Part shown: piece by piece, positions 42,622-54,523 of the stretch | Numbering within the stretch: position 1 is the first letter of the stretch | How the letters are laid out: the number at the start of each line of letters is the position of its first letter | Assembly: GCA_902801205.1 (NCBI GenBank) | Contig: CADCHE010000014.1 | Coordinates: forward strand, 1-54,523 | DNA length: 54,523 bases | Direction: 5' to 3' | Source: an uncultured Bacteroidia bacterium | Lineage (GTDB): Bacteria; Bacteroidota; Bacteroidia; Bacteroidales; UBA932 | Position numbers and translations under genes: made by a program | The notes under the pieces: model-generated | The model's database searches: none | Seen by the model: only the letters and a program-made list of their open reading frames with translations | What the model was told of the DNA's origin: nothing

Positions 42622-44565
42622 ATGCCTTATTCTTTATTCGATCTAAACAAGATGAGCGCCGAGCAGCTTGAAGACATCGCTCGGGGATACGATATCAAGA
42701 ACACGAAAAAAATGGACGCCGAGAACCTGGCGTACGCGATATTGGATGCACAGGCGAAAGCCGAGTCGCTCAAGCCCGAAGAGGACGGCAAGTCCCGCAA
42801 GCGCGGGCGGCCCCGCAAATCGGAAAAACCGGCGGCCAAGGCGGATGCTCCTGCGGAGAAGAAGCCTGTGAAGCCTGCAGCAAAGGCCGCTCCCAAAGAG
42901 GATGCGCCCCAACTTGAAAAGAAGGAGGATGCGCCTGCGGCCGAAACCGCCGCGCAACCCGCTGGCGAAAAGAAACGCCGCGGACGTCCTGCCAAGAAGC
43001 AGGCCGCAACTCCGGCGGAGACGCCTGCCGCCCCTGAAGCTGCAGAAAAGAAGGAGGAAGCTCCTGCCGCCGCACAGCCTGCACCGGCTGCCGCTGACGA
43101 GGCCCGCAAGGGAAACCGCCGCGGACGCAAGGCCAAAGCGCCCCAGGCGGCCGCTCCGCAGCCCGCTGCGGAAGAGAAAGCGGACGCTCCCGCAGAAAAG
43201 ACGGCGGAAGCCACCGCAGAAACACCTGCGGCCAAGCCCGTCGATTCCAAGGAATTCATCCACCAGCTGTTCGACGACCTGAAAGGCGATCCCTCCGAGC
43301 ACCCGGATCCTTCCGGTGAGGCGTCCCGCCAGGGCGGCAAACCGTTCCGTCAGAACAACCGCCAGCAGCAGAACAACGGTGGCAAGCAGCGTCCCCAGGA
43401 GCCCGAATTCGAAGGGACGGTCGAGGCGACCGGCGTGCTGGAGATCATGCCCGACGGCTATGGATTCCTCCGTTCTTCCGACTACAACTACCTCAACTCC
43501 CCGGACGACATCTATGTCTCGCAGGGACAGATCAAGAACAACGCCCTGAAGTCCGGCGACACGGTGACCGGAGAGATCCGCCCGCCGAAGGAAGGGGACA
43601 AATACTTCCCGCTGGTCAAGATCAAGTACATCAACGGGCGTACGCCTGAATTCATCCGCGACCGGGTGCCGTTCGATTTCCTCACTCCCCTCTTCCCGGA
43701 CGAGAAATTCAACCTGCTCGGCCATGGCCACCACAAGGACATATCCTGCCGCATCGTGGACATGTTCACCCCGATCGGCAAGGGCCAGCGCGGCCTGATC
43801 GTCTCGCAGCCGAAGACCGGTAAGACGATGCTCTTGAAGTCGATTGCGAATGCCATCGCGGACAACCACCCCGAGGTGTACGAAATCGTCCTCCTCATCG
43901 ACGAGCGTCCCGAGGAAGTGACCGACATGAGCCGCAGCGTCAAGGCCGAAGTGGTCGCGTCCACCTTCGACGAACCGGCGGAGCGCCATGTCAAGGTGGC
44001 GAACATGGTCCTTGAGAAGGCCCGCCGCCTGGTGGAATGCGGCCATGACGTGGTGATCCTCCTGGATTCCATCACGCGTCTGGCGCGCGCCTACAATACC
44101 GTCCAGCCTGCTTCCGGCAAGGTGCTGACCGGCGGTGTGGACGCCAATGCGCTGCAGAAACCGAAGCGTTTCTTCGGCGCCGCGCGCAACATCGAGGGGG
44201 GCGGTTCCCTCACGATCCTGGCGACGGCCCTCACGGAGACCGGATCCAAGATGGACGACGTGATCTTCGAGGAATTCAAGGGGACCGGCAACATGGAACT
44301 CCAGCTCGACCGTACGCTGGCCAACCGCCGGATCTTCCCCGCTGTCAATGTCGTGCTGTCCAGCACCCGGCGGGACGACCTCCTCTACAGCCGTGATGTG
44401 GCGAACCGGATCTGGATCCTCCGCAAGCTCCTCGCCGACATGAACCCGACCGAGGCCATGAACTTCATGCTCCAGCTGATGGACGAGTACAAGACGAACG
44501 AGGACCTGCTCGACAACATGAATAAAGTGACGCCGCGCGAGGCCAAGTACTACGATTCATTCTGA
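42622..44565 (+). CDS. rho: Transcription termination factor Rho with long disordered insert
   Basis: Hexameric RNA helicase ending transcription. 647 residues, against about 420 in E. coli. The Rho N-terminal helical domain is residues 1-45. Residues 45-262 are a low-complexity insert rich in Ala, Lys, Glu and Pro with three basic patches (RGRPRK 61-66, RRGRPAKK 119-126, RRGRKAK 166-172), then Gln/Asn-rich (240-255). The RNA-binding fold starts at [14 protein letters not shown] (271). The ATPase has P-loop SQPKTGKT (near 396-403), [23 protein letters not shown] and the Q/R-loop region. Inserts of this kind are known in gut Bacteroidota Rho, where they drive condensate formation. Confidence 0.97.
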
Positions 44566-44570
44566 CGGGA

Positions 44571-46127
44571 ATGGGAACGCGGGAAGCGAAGAATGGAAGA
44601 CGCATGCGCGAATGGCTGGCCGGCGGGCTCGTCGGCGTGGCCGTAGGCGCGTGCATCCTTCTTGCGCTGGTGACGGCGGCGGAAAAGACGTCCACCAACG
44701 AGTACTGCATGAAGTGCCATTATCATGAGCAGGCGGACGCCGACTGGAAGAAATCCATGCATTACGCCGGAAAGACCGGTACGGTGACCGACTGCGCCGC
44801 CTGTCATCTTCCGCCGAAGGAAGACGGCATGCTGAAATACTATGCCGTGAAGGCGGGCATCGGCGTGAAGGACCTCTGGACCAAGGCGACCAAGGACAAG
44901 GACGAGATCGACTGGGATTCCAAGCGCCAGCTCGAGCATGCCCAGCGCATCGTCTTCAACCGTTCCTGCGAGAAATGCCATACGAACCTCTTCCCGGAAG
45001 GCATTTCGGACGACGGGGTCACGGCGCATCTCTATTATGAGGAGAATGCGAAGAAGCTCGACCTGCAGTGCATCAGCTGCCACTTGAACGTCGGCCACTT
45101 CATGCCCGGCTACGAGCACAAGAAGCTCAAGGGGAAGGTCGAGACGGGCTCTTCGGTGATTTACGACGCGCCTGCGGCCGTCGAGCGTTTCGCCGACTTC
45201 ACAGAGACGGTACCCGGCACGGGCGCGGCCATCCGGATGATCGCCGTCCCCGGCGGGGAGTTCCTGATGGGCAGCCCGGAGAAGGAAGCTTTCCGCGAGG
45301 CGGACGAAGGTCCGCAGAAGCGGGTCAAAGTCTCCTCGTTCTTCATGGCTGAGACGGAAGTGACCTGGCAGCAGTACTGGTCTTTCTACAACGAAACGAT
45401 GTCGGAAGGTCGTACGCCGCCTGAAAAGATCTACGCGAACAATTCCCGTCCCGACGTGGACGCCGTCAGCGGTCCGACGCCGCCGTTCGGCTTCCCCGAC
45501 CAGGGCTGGGGCATGGGAGAGCGGCCGGCCATTACGATGACGCATTACGCTGCGGAGACTTTCTGCCAGTGGCTTTCCCTGAAGACCGGCCGGCACTACC
45601 GCCTCCCTACCGAGGCGGAATGGGAGTATGCTGCCCGGGGCGGCACGTCGACACCTTATTTCTTCGAAGGGGATCCCAAGAAGATGTCTGAAAAATCCTT
45701 CATGAGCCGCTTCCGCAAAGCCGATACGACGAACATCGCCCACTACGCCATTTACGCCGTGAACGGCCGCGGCCGGACCCAGGAGCCTTCGGCGGTGGAT
45801 GCCAATCCGTTCGGCTTGAAGAATATGCTCGGCAACGTGATGGAGCACTGCGCCGACTGGTATGCGGCGGATGCCTATGCTTCCCTGCAGGACGGTGCCG
45901 TCGATCCGAAGGGACCCGCTTCCGGGACGGAGCATGTCGTCCGCGGCGGTTCCTATGCAGACGATGCGGCCGACATCCGGTGTGCGCGGCGCGGATATAC
46001 GCGGACGGAAGACTGGCTGCGGACCGATCCGCAGAATCCGAAGAGCATCTGGTGGTTCTCCGACATCAAGGGCATCGGCTTCCGCGTCGTGTGCGAAGTG
46101 CCGGAGAATATAAACATGGACAATTGA
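44571..46127 (+). CDS. NapC/NirT-like tetraheme cytochrome c fused to a SUMF1-like domain
   Basis: A 518-residue membrane-anchored exported protein. One transmembrane helix (about 17-37) precedes four c-type heme motifs: CMKCH (46-50), CAACH (75-79), CEKCH (133-137), CISCH (167-171), the size and spacing of the NapC/NrfH quinol-oxidising family. From about 219 a FGE/SUMF1 fold begins (IRMIAVPGGEFLMGS, ETEVTWQQYW, YRLPTEAEWEYAARGG, GNVMEHCADWY, VVRGGSYADDAADIRCARRG, GFRVVCE). The two closely spaced cysteines that make formylglycine enzymes active after RGGS are absent, so it is unlikely to make formylglycine. The start is 5 bases after rho; the next two genes encode exported sugar enzymes. Confidence 0.85.
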   Translation: MGTREAKNGRRMREWLAGGLVGVAVGACILLALVTAAEKTSTNEYCMKCHYHEQADADWKKSMHYAGKTGTVTDCAACHLPPKEDGMLKYYAVKAGIGVKDLWTKATKDKDEIDWDSKRQLEHAQRIVFNRSCEKCHTNLFPEGISDDGVTAHLYYEENAKKLDLQCISCHLNVGHFMPGYEHKKLKGKVETGSSVIYDAPAAVERFADFTETVPGTGAAIRMIAVPGGEFLMGSPEKEAFREADEGPQKRVKVSSFFMAETEVTWQQYWSFYNETMSEGRTPPEKIYANNSRPDVDAVSGPTPPFGFPDQGWGMGERPAITMTHYAAETFCQWLSLKTGRHYRLPTEAEWEYAARGGTSTPYFFEGDPKKMSEKSFMSRFRKADTTNIAHYAIYAVNGRGRTQEPSAVDANPFGLKNMLGNVMEHCADWYAADAYASLQDGAVDPKGPASGTEHVVRGGSYADDAADIRCARRGYTRTEDWLRTDPQNPKSIWWFSDIKGIGFRVVCEVPENINMDN

Positions 46128-46147
46128 TACACTAAATACTACAAAAA

Positions 46148-47494
46148 ATGAGCGACAACAAAATGAACAGAAGATCCTTTATCGGGGTATCTTCGATGAT
46201 CGGGGCGGCCGGCTTGCTCGGCGGCACGGTTCTCACTTCCTGCGCGGGCGGAAAGAAACTCGTTCCGCTGAAGCAGCCCGGTGAGTACTACATTCCGGAA
46301 CTTCCTGACAAGGCCATCGATGGCCGCGAACTGAAGGCCGGTCTCATCGGTTGCGGCGGCCGTGGCAACGGTGCGATCCACAACCTCCTTGCTGCTGCGA
46401 ACGGCATCAAGGTGACGGCCCTCGGTGATGTTTTCCAGGACAGGATCGACACCGTCCGTGAGAACCTCAAGAAGGCTGGACAGGAAGTCCCTGTCGAGAA
46501 TTGCTTCACCGGTTTTGATGCTTACAAGAAAGTGATCGACTCGGGTGTCGACATGGTCGTGGTCGCTACGCCTCCGGTCTTCCGCCCGGTCCATTTCCAG
46601 TATGCGACGGAGAAGGGAGTGCATTCCTTCCTCGAGAAGCCGATTTCGGTGGACGCGAAGGGATACCGCACCATCATGGCAACTGCCAAGCAGGCCGAGG
46701 CCAAGGGCTTGAGCGTCGTCACCGGTACGCAGCGCCATCACCAGCGCCCGTACGTCGAGTCCTTCAAGAAGATCCAGGAAGGTTACATCGGTGAAATCAC
46801 CGGCGGTAACGTGTACTGGAACCAGCCGATGCTCTGGTACCGTGAGCGCCAGGCCGGTTGGAGCGACATGGAATGGATGATCCGCGACTGGGTCAACTGG
46901 AAGTGGCTCTCCGGCGACCACATCGTCGAGCAGCATGTCCACAACATCGACGTCTTCACCTGGATGATCGGCAAGCATCCGCTGCGCGCCACTGGCTTCG
47001 GCAGCCGTCAGCGCCGTGTCACCGGCGACCAGTACGACTTCTTCAGCGTCGACTTCGAGTTCGAGAACAACGTCCATCTGCACAGCATGTGCCGTCAGAT
47101 CGACGGTTGCTCCAACAACGTCAGCGAGTTCGTGCAGGGTACGAAGGGCTCCTGGAGCTCGACGGATTTCGCGATCCGCGACCTGCAGGGCAATATCATC
47201 TGGCAGTTCGACGATGCCGCTGCGAAGGCGGAGTTCCAGCAGCATGATCCCTATGTGCTCGAGCACGTTGACTGGGTCAACCACATCCGCAAGGGAACGA
47301 CCCATGTGGAAGCGGGCGAAACCGGTATGTCTTCCCTCGCCGGCACGATGGGCCGCGAGTCCGCCTACACCGGCCAGACCGTCAACTGGGACGACATCAG
47401 CGCCTCCGATCTCGACTACATGCCCGAGACGCTCGAGCTGGGTCCGATGGATATGTCCAAGTACGTCGTCCGCGTTCCCGGAAGTGGTAAATAA
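46148..47494 (+). CDS. Tat-exported Gfo/Idh/MocA-family oxidoreductase lipoprotein
   Basis: NAD(P)-dependent sugar oxidoreductase, 448 residues. The N-terminus has a twin-arginine motif (NRRSFIG, Arg8-Arg9) and then a lipobox LTSC (Cys32), so it should be folded with bound cofactor and moved across the inner membrane as a lipoprotein. The Rossmann loop is GLIGCGGRGNG (66-76), followed by VVVATPP and the catalytic FLEKPIS motif (Lys164), plus HIVEQHVHNIDV, the Gfo/Idh/MocA active-site helix. Export of such enzymes implies a tightly bound cofactor, as in glucose-fructose oxidoreductase. It lies 20 bases after the tetraheme fusion gene and 9 bases before the TIM-barrel gene. Confidence 0.9.
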   Translation: MSDNKMNRRSFIGVSSMIGAAGLLGGTVLTSCAGGKKLVPLKQPGEYYIPELPDKAIDGRELKAGLIGCGGRGNGAIHNLLAAANGIKVTALGDVFQDRIDTVRENLKKAGQEVPVENCFTGFDAYKKVIDSGVDMVVVATPPVFRPVHFQYATEKGVHSFLEKPISVDAKGYRTIMATAKQAEAKGLSVVTGTQRHHQRPYVESFKKIQEGYIGEITGGNVYWNQPMLWYRERQAGWSDMEWMIRDWVNWKWLSGDHIVEQHVHNIDVFTWMIGKHPLRATGFGSRQRRVTGDQYDFFSVDFEFENNVHLHSMCRQIDGCSNNVSEFVQGTKGSWSSTDFAIRDLQGNIIWQFDDAAAKAEFQQHDPYVLEHVDWVNHIRKGTTHVEAGETGMSSLAGTMGRESAYTGQTVNWDDISASDLDYMPETLELGPMDMSKYVVRVPGSGK

Positions 47495-47503
47495 TCGTCG
47501 GCC

Positions 47504-48406
47504 ATGAATCGGAAAGAATTCTTCCAGACTTCCCTGCTGGGTGCCGCTTCAATCGCTGCGGCATCCACGGGTTTGACGGCTTGCTGCTCCGACAAGAAGA
47601 AAGGGGCGGATGTCAAGCTGAACCTTTCCTTCCAGGAAGGAATCGCTCCCGGCGAAAGCCTCTCCGAGAAGCTTGACTTCATGGAGAATCTCGGCATCGT
47701 CGGTTTCGAGCCCGGCGGACGTGGACTCGCCGGACGGGTGAACGAGATCCAGCAGGCCCTCAATGGCCGCAATATCAAGGTTTCGGCCATCTGCGCAGGC
47801 TTCGACGGGTTCATCCTCTCGGAGGATCCCGCCATCAAGGCCGCGTTTGATGCTTCCATGCGCGAGATCGTTGCCGCGGCCGGAGAGCTCGGTTCCGTCG
47901 GTGTGATCATGGTCCCTGCTTTCAATGGCCAGCAGCCTTGCATGCCGCATACGCAGGCGACGCGTGACTACCTGTGCGAGCAACTGCACGAACTCGGCGA
48001 GTATGCCGTCAAGTGCGGTACGACCGTCATCCTGGAGCCCCTGAATCGTCGTGAGTGCTTCTACCTGCGCCTCGTTGCGGACGCTGCAGCGATCTGCCGC
48101 GATGCCCAGAGCGCCGGTGTGAAGTGCATGGGTGACTTCTGGCACATGCAGGAGGAGACTTCCGACTACGCTGCCTTCATGGCGGCCGGTGCGGAGTACC
48201 TCCAGCACGTTCACATGGCCAGCCGCGGCCAGCGGATCATGCCGGGCGAGGATGGAGACAAGGATGTCTATGTGGACGGATTCCGCGCCCTCAAGGAAAT
48301 CGGCTACGACAAGTATGTCAGTTTCGAGTGCGGAACCAAAGGCGACCGTGCGACCACCGTCACGGCTGCCGTGAATCTGCTGCGCGAACAATGGGAAAAC
48401 GCCTGA
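47504..48406 (+). CDS. Exported TIM-barrel sugar isomerase/lyase-like lipoprotein
   Basis: A 300-residue member of the xylose-isomerase-like (AP endonuclease 2) TIM-barrel superfamily. The signal carries NRKEFF, a weak twin-arginine variant, and a lipobox LTAC (Cys27). The metal-binding quartet of the superfamily is intact: Glu178 (VILEPLNR), Asp211 (MGDFWHM), His237 (QHVHMA) and Glu275 (VSFECG). Reactions in this family are keto-sugar epimerisation or isomerisation, and, in exported Bacteroidota members, elimination from 3-keto-glycosides. It is the third member of the redox module. No terminator follows immediately; the next gene, carB, is convergent. Confidence 0.87.
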   Translation: MNRKEFFQTSLLGAASIAAASTGLTACCSDKKKGADVKLNLSFQEGIAPGESLSEKLDFMENLGIVGFEPGGRGLAGRVNEIQQALNGRNIKVSAICAGFDGFILSEDPAIKAAFDASMREIVAAAGELGSVGVIMVPAFNGQQPCMPHTQATRDYLCEQLHELGEYAVKCGTTVILEPLNRRECFYLRLVADAAAICRDAQSAGVKCMGDFWHMQEETSDYAAFMAAGAEYLQHVHMASRGQRIMPGEDGDKDVYVDGFRALKEIGYDKYVSFECGTKGDRATTVTAAVNLLREQWENA

Positions 48407-48445
48407 CGGGTTTCCCCGCAGGCGCTTCCGCAATAGAACCTTTTT

Positions 48446-48480
48446 TCAAGGCCTGGGTCAATATTCGTCCCAGGCCTTGA
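48446..48480. other. Strong hairpin overlapping the carB stop codon
   Basis: Twelve-base arms (48446-48457 and 48469-48480) around an 11-base loop that contains the carB stop (48458-48460). Neither direction has a proper downstream U-run: the T-run at 48441-48446 is on the wrong side for the plus strand and is A on the minus strand. It may end the plus-strand module by blocking readthrough or protect the carB mRNA 3' end. Confidence 0.6.
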
Positions 48481-51400
48481 TTTGTATGTCGTCCTGTGAC
48501 ATCGACGTGAAGGCTCGGATGAACGCTGTCGCGAGCCGGGCGTTCGTGAAGAGCGGAACGTTGAAGTCGATGGCGGCGCGCCGGAGCTTGTATCCGTTGG
48601 AAAGTTCCAGCTCGGAGAAGTCTTTCGGGATATTGATGACCATGTCAACCTCTTTTCCCTGAATCATTTCCAAGGCCGGTTTGAAGCGTCCCTTGAAGTT
48701 CGGATTGTCACATTCGCTAGGCCAGAGCACCTTGGTGGCGGGGATGCTGTTCTCGACAAGGTACTTGTACGTACCGCCGGTAGCGAACAGTTCGTAGCCG
48801 TGTTCGTTCAGCAGTTTGCAAGCCAGGAGCATATCCGCCTTGGTGAGCGCATCGCCGGTGGAAAGGAGGATGCGGCCGCGCGGAATCTCGTATCCGACCG
48901 AGATGACGGACTTGAGCAGCGCCTCGTTCAGGTCGTCACCCAGACAGCCCACTTCCCCGGTCGAGGACATGTCCACGCCGAGCATCGGGTCCGCTTCTTC
49001 CAGACGGGCGAAACTGAACTGCGAGGACTTGACGCCGACATAGTCGAGGTCGAAGGCGCTCTTCCCCGGTGCGGCGGGATGCAGGCCGAGCATCACCTTC
49101 GTCGCGAGTTCGATGAAATCGATCTTCAGCACCTTGGAGACGAACGGGAAGCTGCGGGACGCCCGCAGGTTGCACTCGATGACCTTGATCTTGTTCTCCT
49201 TGGCGAGGAACTGGATGTTGAAGGGACCGGAGATGTTCAGCGTGCCGGCGATCGCCCGGGCGATCTTCTTGATCCGGCGGACCGTCTCTACATACAGTTT
49301 CTGCGGCGGGAATTGGATCGTTGCGTCGCCGGAGTGTACGCCGGCGTATTCGATGTGCTCGGAAATGGCATACGCCAGCACCTCTCCCTTGTCGGCCACC
49401 GCATCGAACTCGATCTCCTTCGCCCGGGTCATGAATTTGCTGATGACGACCGGATGCTCCTGGGAGACTTCGACGGCGAGGGACAGGAAATGACGCAATT
49501 TCTCTTCATCGTAGCAGACGTTCATGGCTGCACCTGAAAGCACGTAGGAGGGCCGTACGAGCACGGGGAAACCGACTTTCTCGATGAAGCGGTCGACATC
49601 TTCCATCGTCGTCAGCTCACTCCACTGCGGCTGGTCGACGCCGAGGGCATCCACGATGGTCGAGAACTTGTGCCGGTCTTCCGCCTTGTCGATGTCTTCC
49701 GCACTCGTTCCCAGGATCGGAACGCCGTGTCGGTGCAGGCGGAGGGCCAGGTTGTTCGGAATCTGTCCTCCGACAGAGACCACCACGCCGTGCGGCGTCT
49801 CCAGCTCAATGATGTCCATCACCCGTTCGAACGTGAGTTCGTCGAAATACAGGCGGTCGCACATGTCGTAGTCCGTAGAGACCGTCTCGGGGTTGTAGTT
49901 GATCATGACGCCGCGGTACCCCTGCTTCTGGATTGTTTTCAGGCAAGTGACCGAGCACCAGTCGAATTCGACGGAACTGCCGATGCGGTAGGCGCCCGAG
50001 CCGAGCACGACCACGCTGCGCCGGTCGTTCTCGTACACGATGTCGTTCTTCGTGCCGTTGTAGGTCAGGTACAGGTAGTTCGTCTGCGCGGGGAATTCGG
50101 CGGCCAGGGTGTCGATCTGCTTGACGACCGGCACGATGCCGAGTTTCTTGCGGTAGGCGCGGACCTGGTCCATGCGTTCGGCGGAATTGCCTTCGGTATC
50201 CTTGAAGACGGCCCGCTGGACCTGGAAGTCGGAGAATCCTTCCTGCTTGGCCAGCAGGAGGAGCTCGGCCGGCAGGTCTTCCAGCCGGTCGTACCCGCTC
50301 ATTTCCTCATAGGTACGGACGATACCGGCGAGTTTCTCCAGGAACCACTTGTCGATCTTCGTGAGCGCGTGGATGCGGTCGACGGTGTAACCTGCGCGCA
50401 TCGCCTTCGAAATCACAAAGATGCGGTTGTCTGTCGGTTCCTTGAGCGCCGTCTCGATGTCAGCCACCTGCAGCTCCTTGTTGCCGACGAAGCCGTGGGC
50501 GCCCTGCCCGATCATCCGGAGTCCTTTCTGGATCGATTCTTCGAAGGTCCGGCCCACGCTCATCACCTCGCCGACCGACTTCATCGAAGAGCCGATCTTG
50601 CGGGAAACGCCGTGGAACTTGCTCAGGTCCCAGCGCGGGATCTTGCAGACGATGTAGTCGAGCGCCGGTTCGAAGAAGGCGGGTGTCGTCTTCGTGACGG
50701 AGTTCTTCAGGTCGAATAACCCGTAGCCCAGGCCCAGTTTCGCAGCCACGAAGGCCAACGGGTAACCGGTCGCCTTGGAGGCCAGGGCGGAAGACCGGCT
50801 GAGGCGGGCGTTTACTTCGATCACGCGGTAGTCCATCGCGTTGGGATCGTAGGCAAACTGCACGTTACACTCCCCTACGATGCCGATGTGCCGCACGATG
50901 CGGATCGACAGTTCGCGCAGGAAATAATAGTCCTTGTTGGAAAGCGTCTGGGAAGGAGCCACGACGATGCTCTCGCCCGTATGGATGCCAAGCGGGTCGA
51001 AGTTCTCCATGTTGCAGACGGTGATGCAGTTGTCGTATTTGTCACGCACCACTTCATATTCGATCTCCTTCCATCCCTTGAGGGACTTTTCAACGAGCAC
51101 CTGGGGGGAGAAGGAAAAGGCTTTCTCGCAGGTCTCTTCGAGCTCGGCGTCGTTGTCGCAGAAACCGGATCCGAGACCGCCGAGGGCATAGGCGGCGCGG
51201 ACGATCAGCGGATAGCCCAATTCCGCGGCGGCCTTGCGCGCCTGCGCGATATCGCCGGCCGGGTGCGACTTGATCGTCTTCACGCCGATCTCGTCGAGGC
51301 GCTTGATGAAGAGGTCACGGTCCTCCGTGTCCATGATCGCCTGCACGGGGGTGCCAAGCACGTGGACGTTGTACTTGTCCAGGACGCCGTTTTCATACAG

Positions 51401-51700
51401 CGCGACGCCGCAATTCAGGGCTGTCTGGCCGCCGAACGAAAGCAGGATGCCCTGCGGCCGCTCGCGGGCGATGACCTTCTCGACGAAGAAGGGCGTCACC
51501 GGAAGGAAGTAGATCCGGTCGGCCACGCCTTCGGACGTCTGCACCGTCGCGATGTTCGGGTTGATCAGCACCGTCTCGATCCCCTCTTCCCGAAGCGCCT
51601 TGAGCGCCTGCGAGCCGGAGTAGTCGAATTCTCCCGCCTGCCCGATTTTCAGGGCGCCGGAACCCAGGAGAAGCACTTTCTTTATGCTGGTATCTTTCAT
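48458..51700 (-). CDS. carB: Carbamoyl-phosphate synthase large subunit
   Basis: Makes carbamoyl phosphate from bicarbonate, ammonia and two ATP, feeding pyrimidine and arginine synthesis. 1080 residues, the normal length. Two homologous ATP-grasp halves are visible: LLGSGALKIGQAGEFDYSG with GGQTALNCG near the N-terminus, and VLGSGAYRIGSSVEFDWCSV with GGQIPNNLA in the second half. In between is the oligomerisation domain. The C-terminal methylglyoxal-synthase-like allosteric domain begins near LLSTGDALTKADM, ending DEY. It follows carA by 4 bases on the same strand. The hairpin at its stop codon is listed separately. Confidence 0.98.
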   Translation of the reverse strand: MKDTSIKKVLLLGSGALKIGQAGEFDYSGSQALKALREEGIETVLINPNIATVQTSEGVADRIYFLPVTPFFVEKVIARERPQGILLSFGGQTALNCGVALYENGVLDKYNVHVLGTPVQAIMDTEDRDLFIKRLDEIGVKTIKSHPAGDIAQARKAAAELGYPLIVRAAYALGGLGSGFCDNDAELEETCEKAFSFSPQVLVEKSLKGWKEIEYEVVRDKYDNCITVCNMENFDPLGIHTGESIVVAPSQTLSNKDYYFLRELSIRIVRHIGIVGECNVQFAYDPNAMDYRVIEVNARLSRSSALASKATGYPLAFVAAKLGLGYGLFDLKNSVTKTTPAFFEPALDYIVCKIPRWDLSKFHGVSRKIGSSMKSVGEVMSVGRTFEESIQKGLRMIGQGAHGFVGNKELQVADIETALKEPTDNRIFVISKAMRAGYTVDRIHALTKIDKWFLEKLAGIVRTYEEMSGYDRLEDLPAELLLLAKQEGFSDFQVQRAVFKDTEGNSAERMDQVRAYRKKLGIVPVVKQIDTLAAEFPAQTNYLYLTYNGTKNDIVYENDRRSVVVLGSGAYRIGSSVEFDWCSVTCLKTIQKQGYRGVMINYNPETVSTDYDMCDRLYFDELTFERVMDIIELETPHGVVVSVGGQIPNNLALRLHRHGVPILGTSAEDIDKAEDRHKFSTIVDALGVDQPQWSELTTMEDVDRFIEKVGFPVLVRPSYVLSGAAMNVCYDEEKLRHFLSLAVEVSQEHPVVISKFMTRAKEIEFDAVADKGEVLAYAISEHIEYAGVHSGDATIQFPPQKLYVETVRRIKKIARAIAGTLNISGPFNIQFLAKENKIKVIECNLRASRSFPFVSKVLKIDFIELATKVMLGLHPAAPGKSAFDLDYVGVKSSQFSFARLEEADPMLGVDMSSTGEVGCLGDDLNEALLKSVISVGYEIPRGRILLSTGDALTKADMLLACKLLNEHGYELFATGGTYKYLVENSIPATKVLWPSECDNPNFKGRFKPALEMIQGKEVDMVINIPKDFSELELSNGYKLRRAAIDFNVPLFTNARLATAFIRAFTSMSQDDIQIKAWDEY

Positions 51701-51704
51701 GTCG

Positions 51705-52781
51705 TCAGAGTTTGCTGATGAATTCGTCGAAGAGGAATTTGGTGTCGGTCGGGCCGCTGGAAGCTTCCGGATGGAACTGTACGGAGCAGAACGGCTTGAA
51801 CTTGTGCCGGATGCCTTCGTTGGTCCCGTCGTTCATGTTGACGAACCAGGGCTCCCAGTCCTTGCCGAGGGTTTTGTCGTCCACGGCGAAACCGTGGTTC
51901 TGCGAGGTGACGAAGCAGCGGTTCGTGCCCACCTGGCGGACGGGCTGGTTGTGGCTGCGGTGGCCGTATTTCAGTTTGAAGGTATTGGCGCCACCCGCAC
52001 GGGCCAGCAGCTGGTTGCCCATACAGATGCCGAAGATCGGTTTGTCGCGTTCCATCGCCTTGCGCAGGTTCGCGACGGTGATGTTGCAGAACTGCGGGTT
52101 GCCGGGGCCGTTGGAGATGAAGAGGCCGTCGTATTCCAGCTGGTTGAAATCGTAGTTCCAGGGCACGCGCACCAGGTGCACGCCGCGCTCGGCGAAGCAC
52201 CGAAGGATGTTGTGCTTCACACCGCAGTCAACGAGCACGACCGTCTTCTCCCCTTCTCCGTACGTGAGCACTTCCTTCGTGCTGACGAGCGCGATCTGGT
52301 TGGCCAGGTTCGGGTCGTCCACAGGGAAATCCTTCGTTTCCCCTTCGGGAACGATCATGCCGAGCATGGACCCCTTCTCGCGGAGCAGCTGCGTCAGGGC
52401 GCGGGTATCGATGCCGTAGATGCCCGGAATCCGCTGTTCCTTCAGCCAGGCATCGAGGCTCTTGACGGCGTCCCAGTGACTGTATTCGAATGAATAGTCA
52501 CTGATGACCAGGCCGCGCACCCAGATCTGTTCCGATTCGAAGTTCCGGGAGATTCCAAGTTCATCGAATCCTTCATTTGGAACCCCATAATTACCTATCA
52601 AAGGGTAGGTTACACAAAGGATTTGTCCGGAATACGAAGGGTCTGTCAGGCTTTCCGGGTAGCCGACCATCGCCGTGGAAAAGACCACTTCCCCGTCGAC
52701 CGGTCCGCCATATCCGAAGGAATAGCCGCGGAACAGGGTTCCGTCTTCCAGTTTCAGGACCGCGCTGATTCTTTCTTTCAT
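51705..52781 (-). CDS. carA: Carbamoyl-phosphate synthase small (glutaminase) subunit
   Basis: Hydrolyses glutamine and channels ammonia to CarB. 358 residues from ATG 52781 (MKERISAVLKLEDGTLFRG). The open frame extends to 52838, but that stretch is the leader terminator and would give a non-family N-terminus. The N-terminal CPSase_sm domain shows GYPESLTDPSYSGQI. The class I GATase triad is Cys in FGICMGNQ, His in VQFHPEAS and the following Glu. The first gene of carAB, behind a leader with a candidate attenuator. Confidence 0.96.
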   Translation of the reverse strand: MKERISAVLKLEDGTLFRGYSFGYGGPVDGEVVFSTAMVGYPESLTDPSYSGQILCVTYPLIGNYGVPNEGFDELGISRNFESEQIWVRGLVISDYSFEYSHWDAVKSLDAWLKEQRIPGIYGIDTRALTQLLREKGSMLGMIVPEGETKDFPVDDPNLANQIALVSTKEVLTYGEGEKTVVLVDCGVKHNILRCFAERGVHLVRVPWNYDFNQLEYDGLFISNGPGNPQFCNITVANLRKAMERDKPIFGICMGNQLLARAGGANTFKLKYGHRSHNQPVRQVGTNRCFVTSQNHGFAVDDKTLGKDWEPWFVNMNDGTNEGIRHKFKPFCSVQFHPEASSGPTDTKFLFDEFISKL

Positions 52782-52791
52782 GCTCGCATAT

Positions 52792-52827
52792 AAAAAAGGG
52801 ACCACCTCAAACGAGAATGAGATGGCC
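52792..52827 (-). terminator. Intrinsic terminator in the carA leader (attenuator)
   Basis: On the minus strand, arm 52827-52818 pairs with arm 52809-52800 over 10 base pairs (two G-U) around an 8-base loop, followed by CC and six U (52797-52792). It ends about 10 bases before the carA ATG and after no other minus-strand gene, so its only plausible role is premature termination of carAB. Confidence 0.75.
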
Positions 52828-52911
52828 GCCGGTTTCACATAAAAAGAAACATACTCCCTGAGCGTCTACGGGCGCCGGCATTGTCACGGTTATTTTGACA
52901 AAGTGAACCAT
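52807..52911 (-). CDS. Candidate carAB leader peptide (34 residues)
   Basis: A short frame from ATG 52911 to TGA 52809-52807, MVHFVKITVTMPAPVDAQ... ending HLILV. The stop lies in the second arm of the leader terminator, and the U-rich tract (52836-52853) is inside the frame. A ribosome following RNA polymerase closely would sit on both arms and prevent termination. An overlapping ATG at 52919 gives only a 9-residue frame. Expression is not shown; it is proposed from geometry. Confidence 0.5.
   Translation of the reverse strand: MVHFVKITVTMPAPVDAQGVCFFLCETGGHLILV
52836..52853 (-). promoter_or_regulatory. U-rich tract in the carA leader
   Basis: Twelve of 18 transcript bases are U (UAUGUUUCUUUUUAUGUG), ending 8 bases before the terminator stem. 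A UTP-sensitive pause site is the obvious reading by analogy with pyrBI. Confidence 0.5.
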
Positions 52912-52924
52912 TGGGGCATGTTCG

Positions 52925-52958
52925 TTTTGGCAAATGTACAAAATAAATAGTAATTTCG
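52925..52958 (+). promoter_or_regulatory. Candidate mnmE promoter (TTTTG ... TAATTTCG)
   Basis: TTTTG at 52925-52929 and TAATTTCG at 52951-52958 are 21 bases apart, the usual -33/-7 spacing, with one mismatch in the -7 element. The start of mnmE is 19 bases further. It interleaves with the carAB -7 box at 52931-52938. Confidence 0.5.
52931..52938 (-). promoter_or_regulatory. Candidate -7 box TACATTTG (carAB)
   Basis: Exact minus-strand TAnnTTTG, 150 bases before the carA ATG, giving a leader near 143 bases that contains the leader frame, U-tract and terminator in that order. Confidence 0.55.
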
Positions 52959-52977
52959 CATCATCAAAACACGAAAT

Positions 52978-54393
52978 ATGGATTTTTCCAGCTATGAAGA
53001 TACCATCGCCGCTCCAGCGACGACACCGGGGACGAGCGCCATCACCGTATTGCGCCTCAGCGGCCCGGAAACCTTCCCGATCCTTGACCAGACGGTTTCT
53101 TTCCGGCACGGCGACGCCTCCGGGGCTGGAGGCTATACGCTGAAAAGCGGCATCGTCCGCACGGAGGACGGTGAAGTTCTGGACGAGGTGCTGGTCAGTT
53201 TCTTCCGCGCTCCCCATTCCTATACCGGGGAGGATGCCGCGGAAATCTCCTGCCACGCTTCCCCGTATATCGCCGGCGAGCTGCTCCGGCTGCTTTGCGC
53301 GGCGGGCGCACGTATGGCGCGTCCCGGTGAATTCACGCAGCGCGCTTTCTTGAACGGAAAGATGGATTTAGCACAGGCTGAGGTTGTTGCAGATATCATC
53401 TCATCTTCTGATGCAGCTTCCTTGAAAGTTGCCATGCATCAGTTGCGCGGTGGTTATTCGCAGCGGTTGAAGGAGGTCCGTGCGCAGCTGCTGCGACTCA
53501 CGTCGCTGGTCGAACTCGAATTGGATTTCTCCGAGGAAGAAGTAACGTTCGCGGATCGGGAAGAGTTGCGGACCCTCCTCGAGGCGACGCGGTCCGATGT
53601 TGTCAGGCTCCGGGATTCTTTCCGGCTCGGCAACGCGATCAAGAATGGTGTCCCCGTTGCGATCGTCGGTCCGGTCAACGCCGGAAAGAGCACCCTGCTC
53701 AACGCCCTGCTCGAAGAAGACCGGGCGATCGTTTCGGATGTTCCGGGGACAACGCGCGACAGCATCGAAGAATCCGTCGTCCTGGGCGGAGTCCGTTTCC
53801 GCTTCATGGACACGGCCGGCCTCCGAAGCACCGATGACCATGTCGAGCGGATCGGGATCGAGCGCTCCCTCCGGCGCCTGTCCGAGGCGGATGTCGTGCT
53901 CATGATCCTGGATGTCACTGCTCCCGTAGAAGAGAATACCGTCGTGCTTTCTTCGCTCCTGGAGCGAGTCAATTGGGATGCACAGAAAGTCCTTATCTTG
54001 CTCAATAAGGCTGACAAATTGGGCGATAACAATATTGTTAGTATTTGTAACCGATATGTTTCTCTTGTTGATAATAAATGCGAAATATTATCTATGGCCG
54101 CAAAGTCAGGGGTAGGGATCCCGGACTTGATCAAGTGGCTTGAAAAGTCACAAAATGGGCTATTCAAAACATCGGACGAAACGCTGGTGACCAATCTTCG
54201 TCACTACGAAAAACTAAAGGAAGCGGCCGATTCGCTTGCCGCGGCCGGTGCCGCTTTGGACGCCGAACTCCCTGGCGACCTGCTGGCGGAGGACCTCCGT
54301 TCCGCCGCGTCCAGCCTGGGCGCCATTACCGGCGAAATCACCTCCGACGAAGTCCTCGGCGAGATCTTCGCGAAGTTTTGCATCGGAAAGTAA
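52978..54393 (+). CDS. mnmE: tRNA-5-carboxymethylaminomethyluridine GTPase MnmE (TrmE)
   Basis: GTPase that with MnmG modifies wobble U34 of several tRNAs. 471 residues. The N-terminal folate-binding domain is followed by the central helical domain (FTQRAFLNGKMDLAQAEVV). The inserted G domain has GPVNAGKST (G1, near 230), DVPGTTRDS (G2), MDTAGLRST (G3) and LNKADKLG (G4). The C-terminus ends in CIGK, with the essential Cys. Codons in 53985-54185 are strikingly A/T-rich compared with the rest of the gene. A strong terminator follows about 80 bases after the stop. Confidence 0.97.
   Translation: MDFSSYEDTIAAPATTPGTSAITVLRLSGPETFPILDQTVSFRHGDASGAGGYTLKSGIVRTEDGEVLDEVLVSFFRAPHSYTGEDAAEISCHASPYIAGELLRLLCAAGARMARPGEFTQRAFLNGKMDLAQAEVVADIISSSDAASLKVAMHQLRGGYSQRLKEVRAQLLRLTSLVELELDFSEEEVTFADREELRTLLEATRSDVVRLRDSFRLGNAIKNGVPVAIVGPVNAGKSTLLNALLEEDRAIVSDVPGTTRDSIEESVVLGGVRFRFMDTAGLRSTDDHVERIGIERSLRRLSEADVVLMILDVTAPVEENTVVLSSLLERVNWDAQKVLILLNKADKLGDNNIVSICNRYVSLVDNKCEILSMAAKSGVGIPDLIKWLEKSQNGLFKTSDETLVTNLRHYEKLKEAADSLAAAGAALDAELPGDLLAEDLRSAASSLGAITGEITSDEVLGEIFAKFCIGK
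54027..54040. repeat. Palindrome TAACAATATTGTTA, copy 2 (inside mnmE)
   Basis: Identical to the 14-base palindrome upstream of rarA, here within coding sequence. Confidence 0.6.
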
Positions 54394-54474
54394 ATAGAAA
54401 GTAACAACTTCCACCAAATCTGTTCTAAAAAGTACGAATTGTCTAATAATCAACTAAATACATAGACAAATATT

Positions 54475-54507
54475 TCCGGATATTCCTTTTTGATATCCGG
54501 ATTTTTT
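54475..54507 (+). terminator. Intrinsic terminator downstream of mnmE
   Basis: Arms 54475-54483 and 54493-54501 pair over 9 bases (core CCGGATAT/ATATCCGG) around a 9-base loop, followed by six T (54502-54507). Confidence 0.88.
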
Positions 54508-54510
54508 CAT

Positions 54511-54518
54511 TATATTTG
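54511..54518 (+). promoter_or_regulatory. Candidate -7 box TATATTTG for the gene beyond the window
   Basis: Exact TAnnTTTG directly after the mnmE terminator; a TTTTTG at 54487-54492, in the terminator loop, could serve as -33. Confidence 0.5.
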
Positions 54519-54523
54519 AACCA

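Follow-up and report, generated by a model that had tools for sequence, protein, structure and literature searches.

A probable translation-coupled transcription attenuator ahead of carAB in an uncultured Bacteroidales bacterium

RESULTS

Organization of the carAB leader

The window analyzed here is a 54,523-nt stretch of DNA from an uncultured, gut-type member of the Bacteroidales, whose genus appears to be Cryptobacteroides (GTDB). On its minus strand lie carA and, directly behind it, an ORF taken to be carB; on the plus strand, a divergent gene, presumably mnmE, starts at 52978. The 196-nt gap between the divergent gene (ATG 52978) and carA (ATG 52781) is wholly intergenic and holds all of the leader elements, as follows.

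52951-52958, plus strand: TAATTTCG, read off the sequence as a putative -7-like box of the divergent gene with its ATG at 52978
52938-52931, minus strand: TAnnTTTG box TACATTTG, read off the sequence as the putative promoter of the carAB leader transcript
52919-52890, minus strand: out-of-frame short ORF MPQWFTLSK*, nine codons, with its AUG at 52919 (read off the sequence)
52911-52807, minus strand: leader ORF MVHFVKITVTMPAPVDAQGVCFFLCETGGHLILV, 34 codons plus TGA (read off the sequence; ORF-to-hairpin conservation in relatives)
52875-52862, minus strand: GCGCC-CGUA-GACGC, a small hairpin of the pause type, weakened by a single C.A mismatch
52853-52836, minus strand: U-rich tract, 12 U of 18 (read off the sequence; shuffles)
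52827-52800, minus strand: predicted intrinsic terminator hairpin of 10 bp with an 8-nt loop and two G-U pairs, -15.7 kcal/mol (sequence, folding, covariation)
52799-52792, minus strand: CCUUUUUU, directly after the hairpin (read off the sequence)
52797-52792, minus strand: U6 run of the terminator (read off the sequence)
52781-51705, minus strand: carA, carbamoyl-phosphate synthase small subunit, the putatively controlled gene (ORF; TIGR01368, 451.5 bits, above the cut-off)
51700-48458, minus strand: presumed carB, large subunit, directly 3' of carA (ORF)

The initial annotation had named the -7 box, the 34-codon frame, the U tract, the hairpin, and the carA ATG on the minus strand, and all of them lie where it had placed them; its count of 12 U in 18 and its 10-bp hairpin with two G-U pairs hold to the base. 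It had also claimed that the leader frame stops inside the second arm of the hairpin, and the TGA at 52809-52807 indeed forms the initial three bases of the 3' arm. To these elements we add the pause-type hairpin and the out-of-frame AUG at 52919, eight bases 5' of the leader AUG. An excerpt of a study of the phylum gives TAnnTTTG as its sigma-A promoter consensus (PMC9723704), from which we infer that TACATTTG is the promoter of the carAB leader.

The 145-nt leader folds more stably than its shuffled versions (z of -2.67; 1 of 200 as low). Since the hairpin ends only 18 nt before the carA AUG (15 to 25 nt in many relatives), carA has to be transcribed through it; the predicted terminator would thus stand between the promoter and the first structural gene, which is read through it. 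The pyrB gene of the same genome directly follows an upstream gene and is without such a leader.

Conservation of the terminator hairpin

Our sample comprised 192 carA loci with 134 distinct upstream regions. At its threshold, the scanner reported a hairpin followed by a U run in 73 of these and none in 61, and a loose pattern of the same terminator fits 58 of the 73. For leader analysis, 59 upstream regions were selected; a TAnnTT[TC]G box lies 5' of the hairpin in 56, and the three without one (L071, which is cut by the contig end, L185, and L145) were dropped. Two of the 56, L041 and L046, have kept the hairpin and lost the long leader; in both, a frame still begins just before the hairpin, and in L046 it is continuous with carA. 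The remaining 54 leaders were clustered at 70% identity into 27 representatives, 19 of them long (at least 90 nt) and eight short.

Because MAFFT, run on 48 hairpins, put the short stems out of place, we used a register anchored on the conserved CC/GG, which 46 of 49 stems share (L045, L066, and L069 have a differing anchor and were dropped), and a separate alignment of 16 rows. In the anchored register, 487 of 529 cells of the 46 stems are standard pairs (shuffled mean, 443; sd, 4.4; maximum, 457). Some changes are compensatory, e.g., one pair that goes from U-A to C-G in 15 of the 46 stems. The 16-row alignment is 97.7% paired, two of its pairs are changed on both sides, and none of 500 shuffles attained its covariation score; since the sequences are related, the shuffles overstate the significance of the stem. 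The initial annotation had proposed aligning carA upstream regions across relatives, and in such a comparison within the genus the hairpin covaries and the short frame is conserved in all 27 nonredundant leaders.

A covariance model built from the 16-row alignment (R1) has this hairpin as its only match in the genome of the window at E up to 1 (E of 3.2e-8), the window sequence being one of its training rows. Among 299 genomes of the family, R1 matches 25: 16 of the same genus, including that of the window, and 9 of other genera. All 16 same-genus matches lie just upstream of carA, and at least three of them (G000, G072, and G143) are training rows; at the matches in the 9 genomes of other genera, carA is absent from the stretch that was fetched. 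R1 misses same-genus genomes whose element the scanner detects, e.g., G016, G052, and G310.

PyrR-binding attenuators (Rfam PyrR) are known to attenuate pyrimidine genes. Rfam gave no match at E up to 1 in window positions 44000-54523, and in 11 related loci its single match scored far under the gathering cut-off of an unrelated family. With no Rfam match, a PyrR element or riboswitch was rejected.

Distribution of the element among carA genes

In L036 and L037, which are close relatives, the whole element has been lost and carA sits right behind the promoter. Judged by eye, other carA genes without the attenuator seem to have joined other operons. On a tree of 111 CarA proteins, 50 rows carry the label "attenuator with leader"; their placement takes 15 changes, versus 36.7 when labels are shuffled, and 6 of the 15 are forced by well-supported branches. 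The attenuator is clustered on the carA tree, a pattern that suggests repeated gains or, more simply, losses.

Several side observations concern the carA genes of the genus themselves. The distribution of carAB is patchy: at E up to 1e-60, 229 of 400 genomes of the genus gave a carA match, as did 106 of 150 high-quality ones. In L131, the region upstream of carA lacks the usual leader and has in its place a 6-codon ORF and, 15 nt ahead of carA, a different hairpin that resembles a terminator. Two loci of the genus, L029 and L030, whose CarA is about 49% identical, have kept the leader attenuator. By eye, their CarA has no glutaminase cysteine (FGVGMGYH or FGLGVGYH in place of FGICMGNQ) and a changed QFHPE region, for which reasons it may be glutaminase dead and the enzyme ammonia fed.

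The leader ORF reaches the terminator

Each of the 27 representatives has an AUG in its first 45 nt whose frame extends to position -21 relative to the hairpin or beyond, whereas dinucleotide shuffles (300 rounds) gave a mean of 10.0 and a maximum of 16. When only the first AUG is counted, 25 of the 27 frames reach the hairpin, versus 7.6 in shuffles (maximum, 14); the two exceptions, whose first AUG is not the hairpin-reaching one, are the window and L049. Leader stop codons are spread over the last 20 nt ahead of the hairpin and its interior; those of L006, L018, L090, L122, and L123 lie past it, as in E. coli pyrL. According to the portion of PMC4824070 cited here, stop codons placed more than 27 nt ahead of a terminator lost their repressive effect on it in an E. 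coli test system. Judged by that limit, the stops of all 27 leaders would put the ribosome within reach of the terminator, suggesting that each leader ORF can bring a ribosome to the terminator 5' arm.

The leader peptide is weakly conserved, which would be the expected outcome if what counts is that the leader is translated and not which peptide results. Third codon positions vary most in 4 of the 5 groups that have comparable pairs, with the provisos that the compared pairs are not independent, that nonsynonymous changes are common, and that the L029-L030 pair has no third-position excess.

The U tract and the pause-type hairpin

The U tract of the window is richer than expected from dinucleotide shuffles of its own leader (p of 0.008). 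In every one of the 19 long leaders, the 18-nt segment richest in U ends no more than 30 nt from the hairpin (shuffled mean, 8.7; maximum, 15) when ties are settled toward the hairpin; settled the other way, the count is 18 of 19 (mean, 5.7; maximum, 13). For U richness itself, Fisher's combined p is 6e-9 over the 19 long leaders, 10 of which fall below 0.05 singly, and 2e-6 over all 27. The U fraction is 0.43 to 0.57 at positions -25 to -6 and 0.15 to 0.29 further upstream. A U-rich tract shortly before the terminator thus appears to be a regular part of the leader, albeit weak in two of the 19 long leaders (L019 and L047, with 7 U in the best window) and absent from five of the eight short ones (L007, L009, L018, L060, and L090), which have at most 7 U in the best window and keep the ORF and terminator.

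Among 9 leaders picked by hand, 8 form all five pairs of a candidate pause-type hairpin whose 3' end lies 29 to 35 nt ahead of the terminator, a count that leaves out L045 and L123, whose hairpins have another shape; the window forms four of the five pairs. The alternative pairs seen are U-A, U-G, and C-G and G-C, G-U, and A-U. The folding energy is hardly below that of shuffles (combined p of 0.028 over 20 leaders; p of 0.92 in the window). For E. coli pyrL, the cited part of PMC9291695 describes a pause that is independent of NusA and a pause hairpin classed as weak.

carA and pyrB leaders outside the genus

For the order at large, we read 70 carA loci, two of them from the same family, out of 138 of 247 genomes that matched above the cut-off. 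Seven (L208, L213, L240, L251, L253, L259, and L265) pass the hairpin threshold, and by eye the hairpin of L213 resembles a terminator that ends the upstream gene; L235, L244, and L266 have hairpins near carA that fall below the scanner threshold. Alone among the 70, L240, from another family, combines box, ORF, and terminator near carA at threshold: its ORF MNEDRHFKLMRRKIKFSNTKD stops 9 nt before a 13-bp terminator, and carA follows 24 nt on. Possibly, L240 represents an independent carA attenuator.

A different arrangement was seen upstream of carA in L203, L205, L207, L216, L233, L238, and L254, all from other families: a conserved inverted repeat, with a ACGATAGAA-like and a TTCTATCGT-like arm, lies directly before the ATG. 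The ACGATAGAA-like first arm is in or beside a small hairpin that follows the promoter, and the whole resembles a control element of another kind; six of the loci were scanned and gave no Rfam match at the gathering score.

The corresponding pyrB sample comprised 30 loci read from 106 genomes above the cut-off, and most of its hairpins resemble, by eye, terminators of the upstream gene. In two other families, f96 and f37, a hairpin with a U run lies within 140 nt in 30 of the 59 loci with a recognized pyrB start. Of these 30, 25 have the box, located 103 to 111 nt upstream in 20 of the 25, and the ORF stop is within the hairpin in 14 of the 25. A hairpin-reaching ORF is present in 14 of 14 representatives (shuffled mean, 4.2; maximum, 9). 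The U tract of these leaders is not significant (Fisher p of 0.76), although U peaks at -25. Their terminators, in L316, L329, L334, L362, and others, are of the types CCAACATTG...CAATGTTGG or CCAATAT...ATATTGG, followed by a U run; in L316 and L329, we also observed that the leader AUG lies in the loop of a small hairpin, TCTGATATGAAATCAGA. Because these pyrB leaders have the ORF and lack a significant U tract, ORF-coupled attenuation of pyrimidine genes seems to be wider than the U tract.

Comparison with E. coli pyrBI and other known leaders

As a yardstick, the pyrBI leader of E. coli K-12 (L268) was read with the same scripts as the window. The two have in common the order of promoter, leader ORF running into the terminator, candidate pause-type hairpin, U tract, terminator, and pyrimidine gene, and their spacing agrees closely, element by element: box to hairpin, 111 nt in the window and 119 nt in pyrBI (from the -10 box); ORF start before the hairpin, 84 and 88 nt (pyrL); U window, 12 of 18 ending at -8 and 10 of 18 ending at -10; end of the pause-type hairpin, -34 and -38; terminator energy, -15.7 and -15.3 kcal/mol; and hairpin to gene, 18 and 30 nt. 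They differ in that the ORF stops inside the hairpin in the window and 3 nt before the gene in E. coli, that the genes controlled here would be carAB, and that the promoter box is of the Bacteroidota type.

Local alignment of pyrL with 40 leader peptides detected no relationship to pyrL: the alignment with the window peptide is 3 residues long, and the best single p, 0.004 out of 40 tried, belongs to an alternative frame of L122. Homology with pyrL is therefore not supported, and the likeness to pyrBI is one of layout, probably convergent.

The E. coli carAB operon itself shares with the window the genes, their role in two pathways, and the response to pyrimidines proposed here. In the excerpted text of PMC6245113, its control is exerted at initiation, through tandem promoters, ArgR and several other DNA-binding factors, and UTP-dependent reiterative transcription, and attenuation is said to play no part at its arginine promoter; within that account, an attenuator is a feature proposed for the window and not for E. 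coli.

Within the phylum, leader-peptide attenuators are mentioned for amino acid operons of Flavobacterium psychrophilum in an excerpt of PMC9723704, and small ORFs reminiscent of leader peptides are mentioned for Bacteroides thetaiotaomicron in one of PMC7366714. Like the carAB leader, these combine a leader ORF with proposed attenuation in the Bacteroidota; they belong to amino acid operons or unassigned genes, with no pyrimidine gene named in the excerpts, whereas the carAB leader has no regulatory codon run. The initial annotation knew of no described case in the phylum, and our searches of open-access papers agree, having turned up no description of a pyrimidine attenuator in the Bacteroidota.

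DISCUSSION

We propose that the carAB operon of the window is probably controlled by a transcription attenuator that works like that of E. coli pyrBI. RNA polymerase would start at the TAnnTTTG promoter and transcribe the ORF, the pause-type hairpin, the U tract, and, 18 nt ahead of carA, the terminator. With ample UTP, polymerase would pass the U tract undelayed, the terminator would fold ahead of the ribosome, and transcription would end. When UTP is scarce, polymerase would be slowed in the U tract and the ribosome translating the leader would catch up; the stop codon inside the hairpin would carry this ribosome over the 5' arm, so that no hairpin forms and carAB is transcribed. Comparison among relatives supports the terminator, the hairpin-reaching ORF, and the U tract, as well as the way in which the three are ordered and spaced at carA, and from this anatomy we infer termination in vivo. 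Release of the attenuator by leader translation is very likely, and UTP is its likely signal.

The initial annotation had described the leader as a pyrBI-style UTP attenuator. Its translated-leader part is borne out by the conservation of ORF, terminator, spacing, and location at carA, and its UTP part finds less direct support: the U tract is rightly placed in the long leaders beyond shuffles, but no clear tract stands in five of the eight short and two of the 19 long leaders, and the window has a weak pause-type hairpin. In the chief alternative, the attenuator would be coupled to translation in the same manner but would report another nucleotide, or translation itself through its general rate or its initiation; a ribosome that keeps pace would release the terminator, with the U tract acting as a plain pause. 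The ORF and terminator are conserved more widely than the U tract, as the five tract-less short leaders and the 14 pyrB representatives of two other families illustrate; yet the U maximum of the long carA leaders, that of the window included, stands at the pyrBI position beyond shuffles, and the controlled gene belongs to the pyrimidine pathway. We regard a signal other than UTP as unlikely.

Carbamoyl phosphate also leads to arginine, and an amino acid attenuator, in which a shortage of arginine stalls the leader ribosome, would suit both the service of carAB to arginine synthesis and the general anatomy of such attenuators, a leader ORF with a terminator. The window peptide has no arginine codon, however, and arginine codons are not enriched among leader codons up to the hairpin end (28 of 717); moreover, with a stop at or in the hairpin, a ribosome finishing the leader would block the terminator rather than permit it. 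We rejected this very improbable candidate on codon content.

It is just as hard to credit that the hairpin is an unregulated terminator or the end of a small RNA, with carA transcribed from elsewhere. Terminator-like hairpins do end upstream genes before pyrB in other families, but here the upstream gene is divergent, so no transcript needs ending; the 18 nt before carA have no room for another promoter, and the leader ORF and U tract would go unexplained.

Least probable of all is a translational switch in which the hairpin, 18 nt from the AUG in the window, hides the carA ribosome-binding region, or in which the leader supplies ribosomes by reinitiation, a process proposed in the cited part of PMC4833913 to increase translation at short leader genes near start codons, Bacteroidetes included: both are disfavored because the relevant distances vary, the hairpin lying 15 to 91 nt from the AUG in full-length loci that keep the pairing and the U run, and the leader stop at least 28 nt before the AUG in most representatives, versus the 11- to 14-bp peak of Bacteroidetes given there.

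Returning to a pyrBI-like attenuator, we offer a broader proposal tentatively, as one that may well prove wrong. Ribosome-coupled attenuation could be standard for pyrimidine synthesis in the Bacteroidales, acting on carAB in Cryptobacteroides and on pyrB in two or more other families. It would have arisen independently of the proteobacterial pyrBI system, with sensors that extend from a strict U-tract gauge of UTP to leaders poor in U that respond to the rate of translation or to a different nucleotide.

In the classic account of E. coli pyrBI, UTP is sensed directly by a ribosome that chases RNA polymerase. If the carAB leader works in this way, the same spacing on another pyrimidine operon, in a distant phylum and with no sequence kinship, would be a convergent nucleotide sensor, and tight coupling of transcription and translation would be implied in the Bacteroidales. 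The carAB leader would offer a concrete reporter for such coupling in gut and rumen bacteria, and its natural variants, which include long leaders with the U tract, short ones without it, leader-less forms, and complete losses, lend themselves to its dissection.
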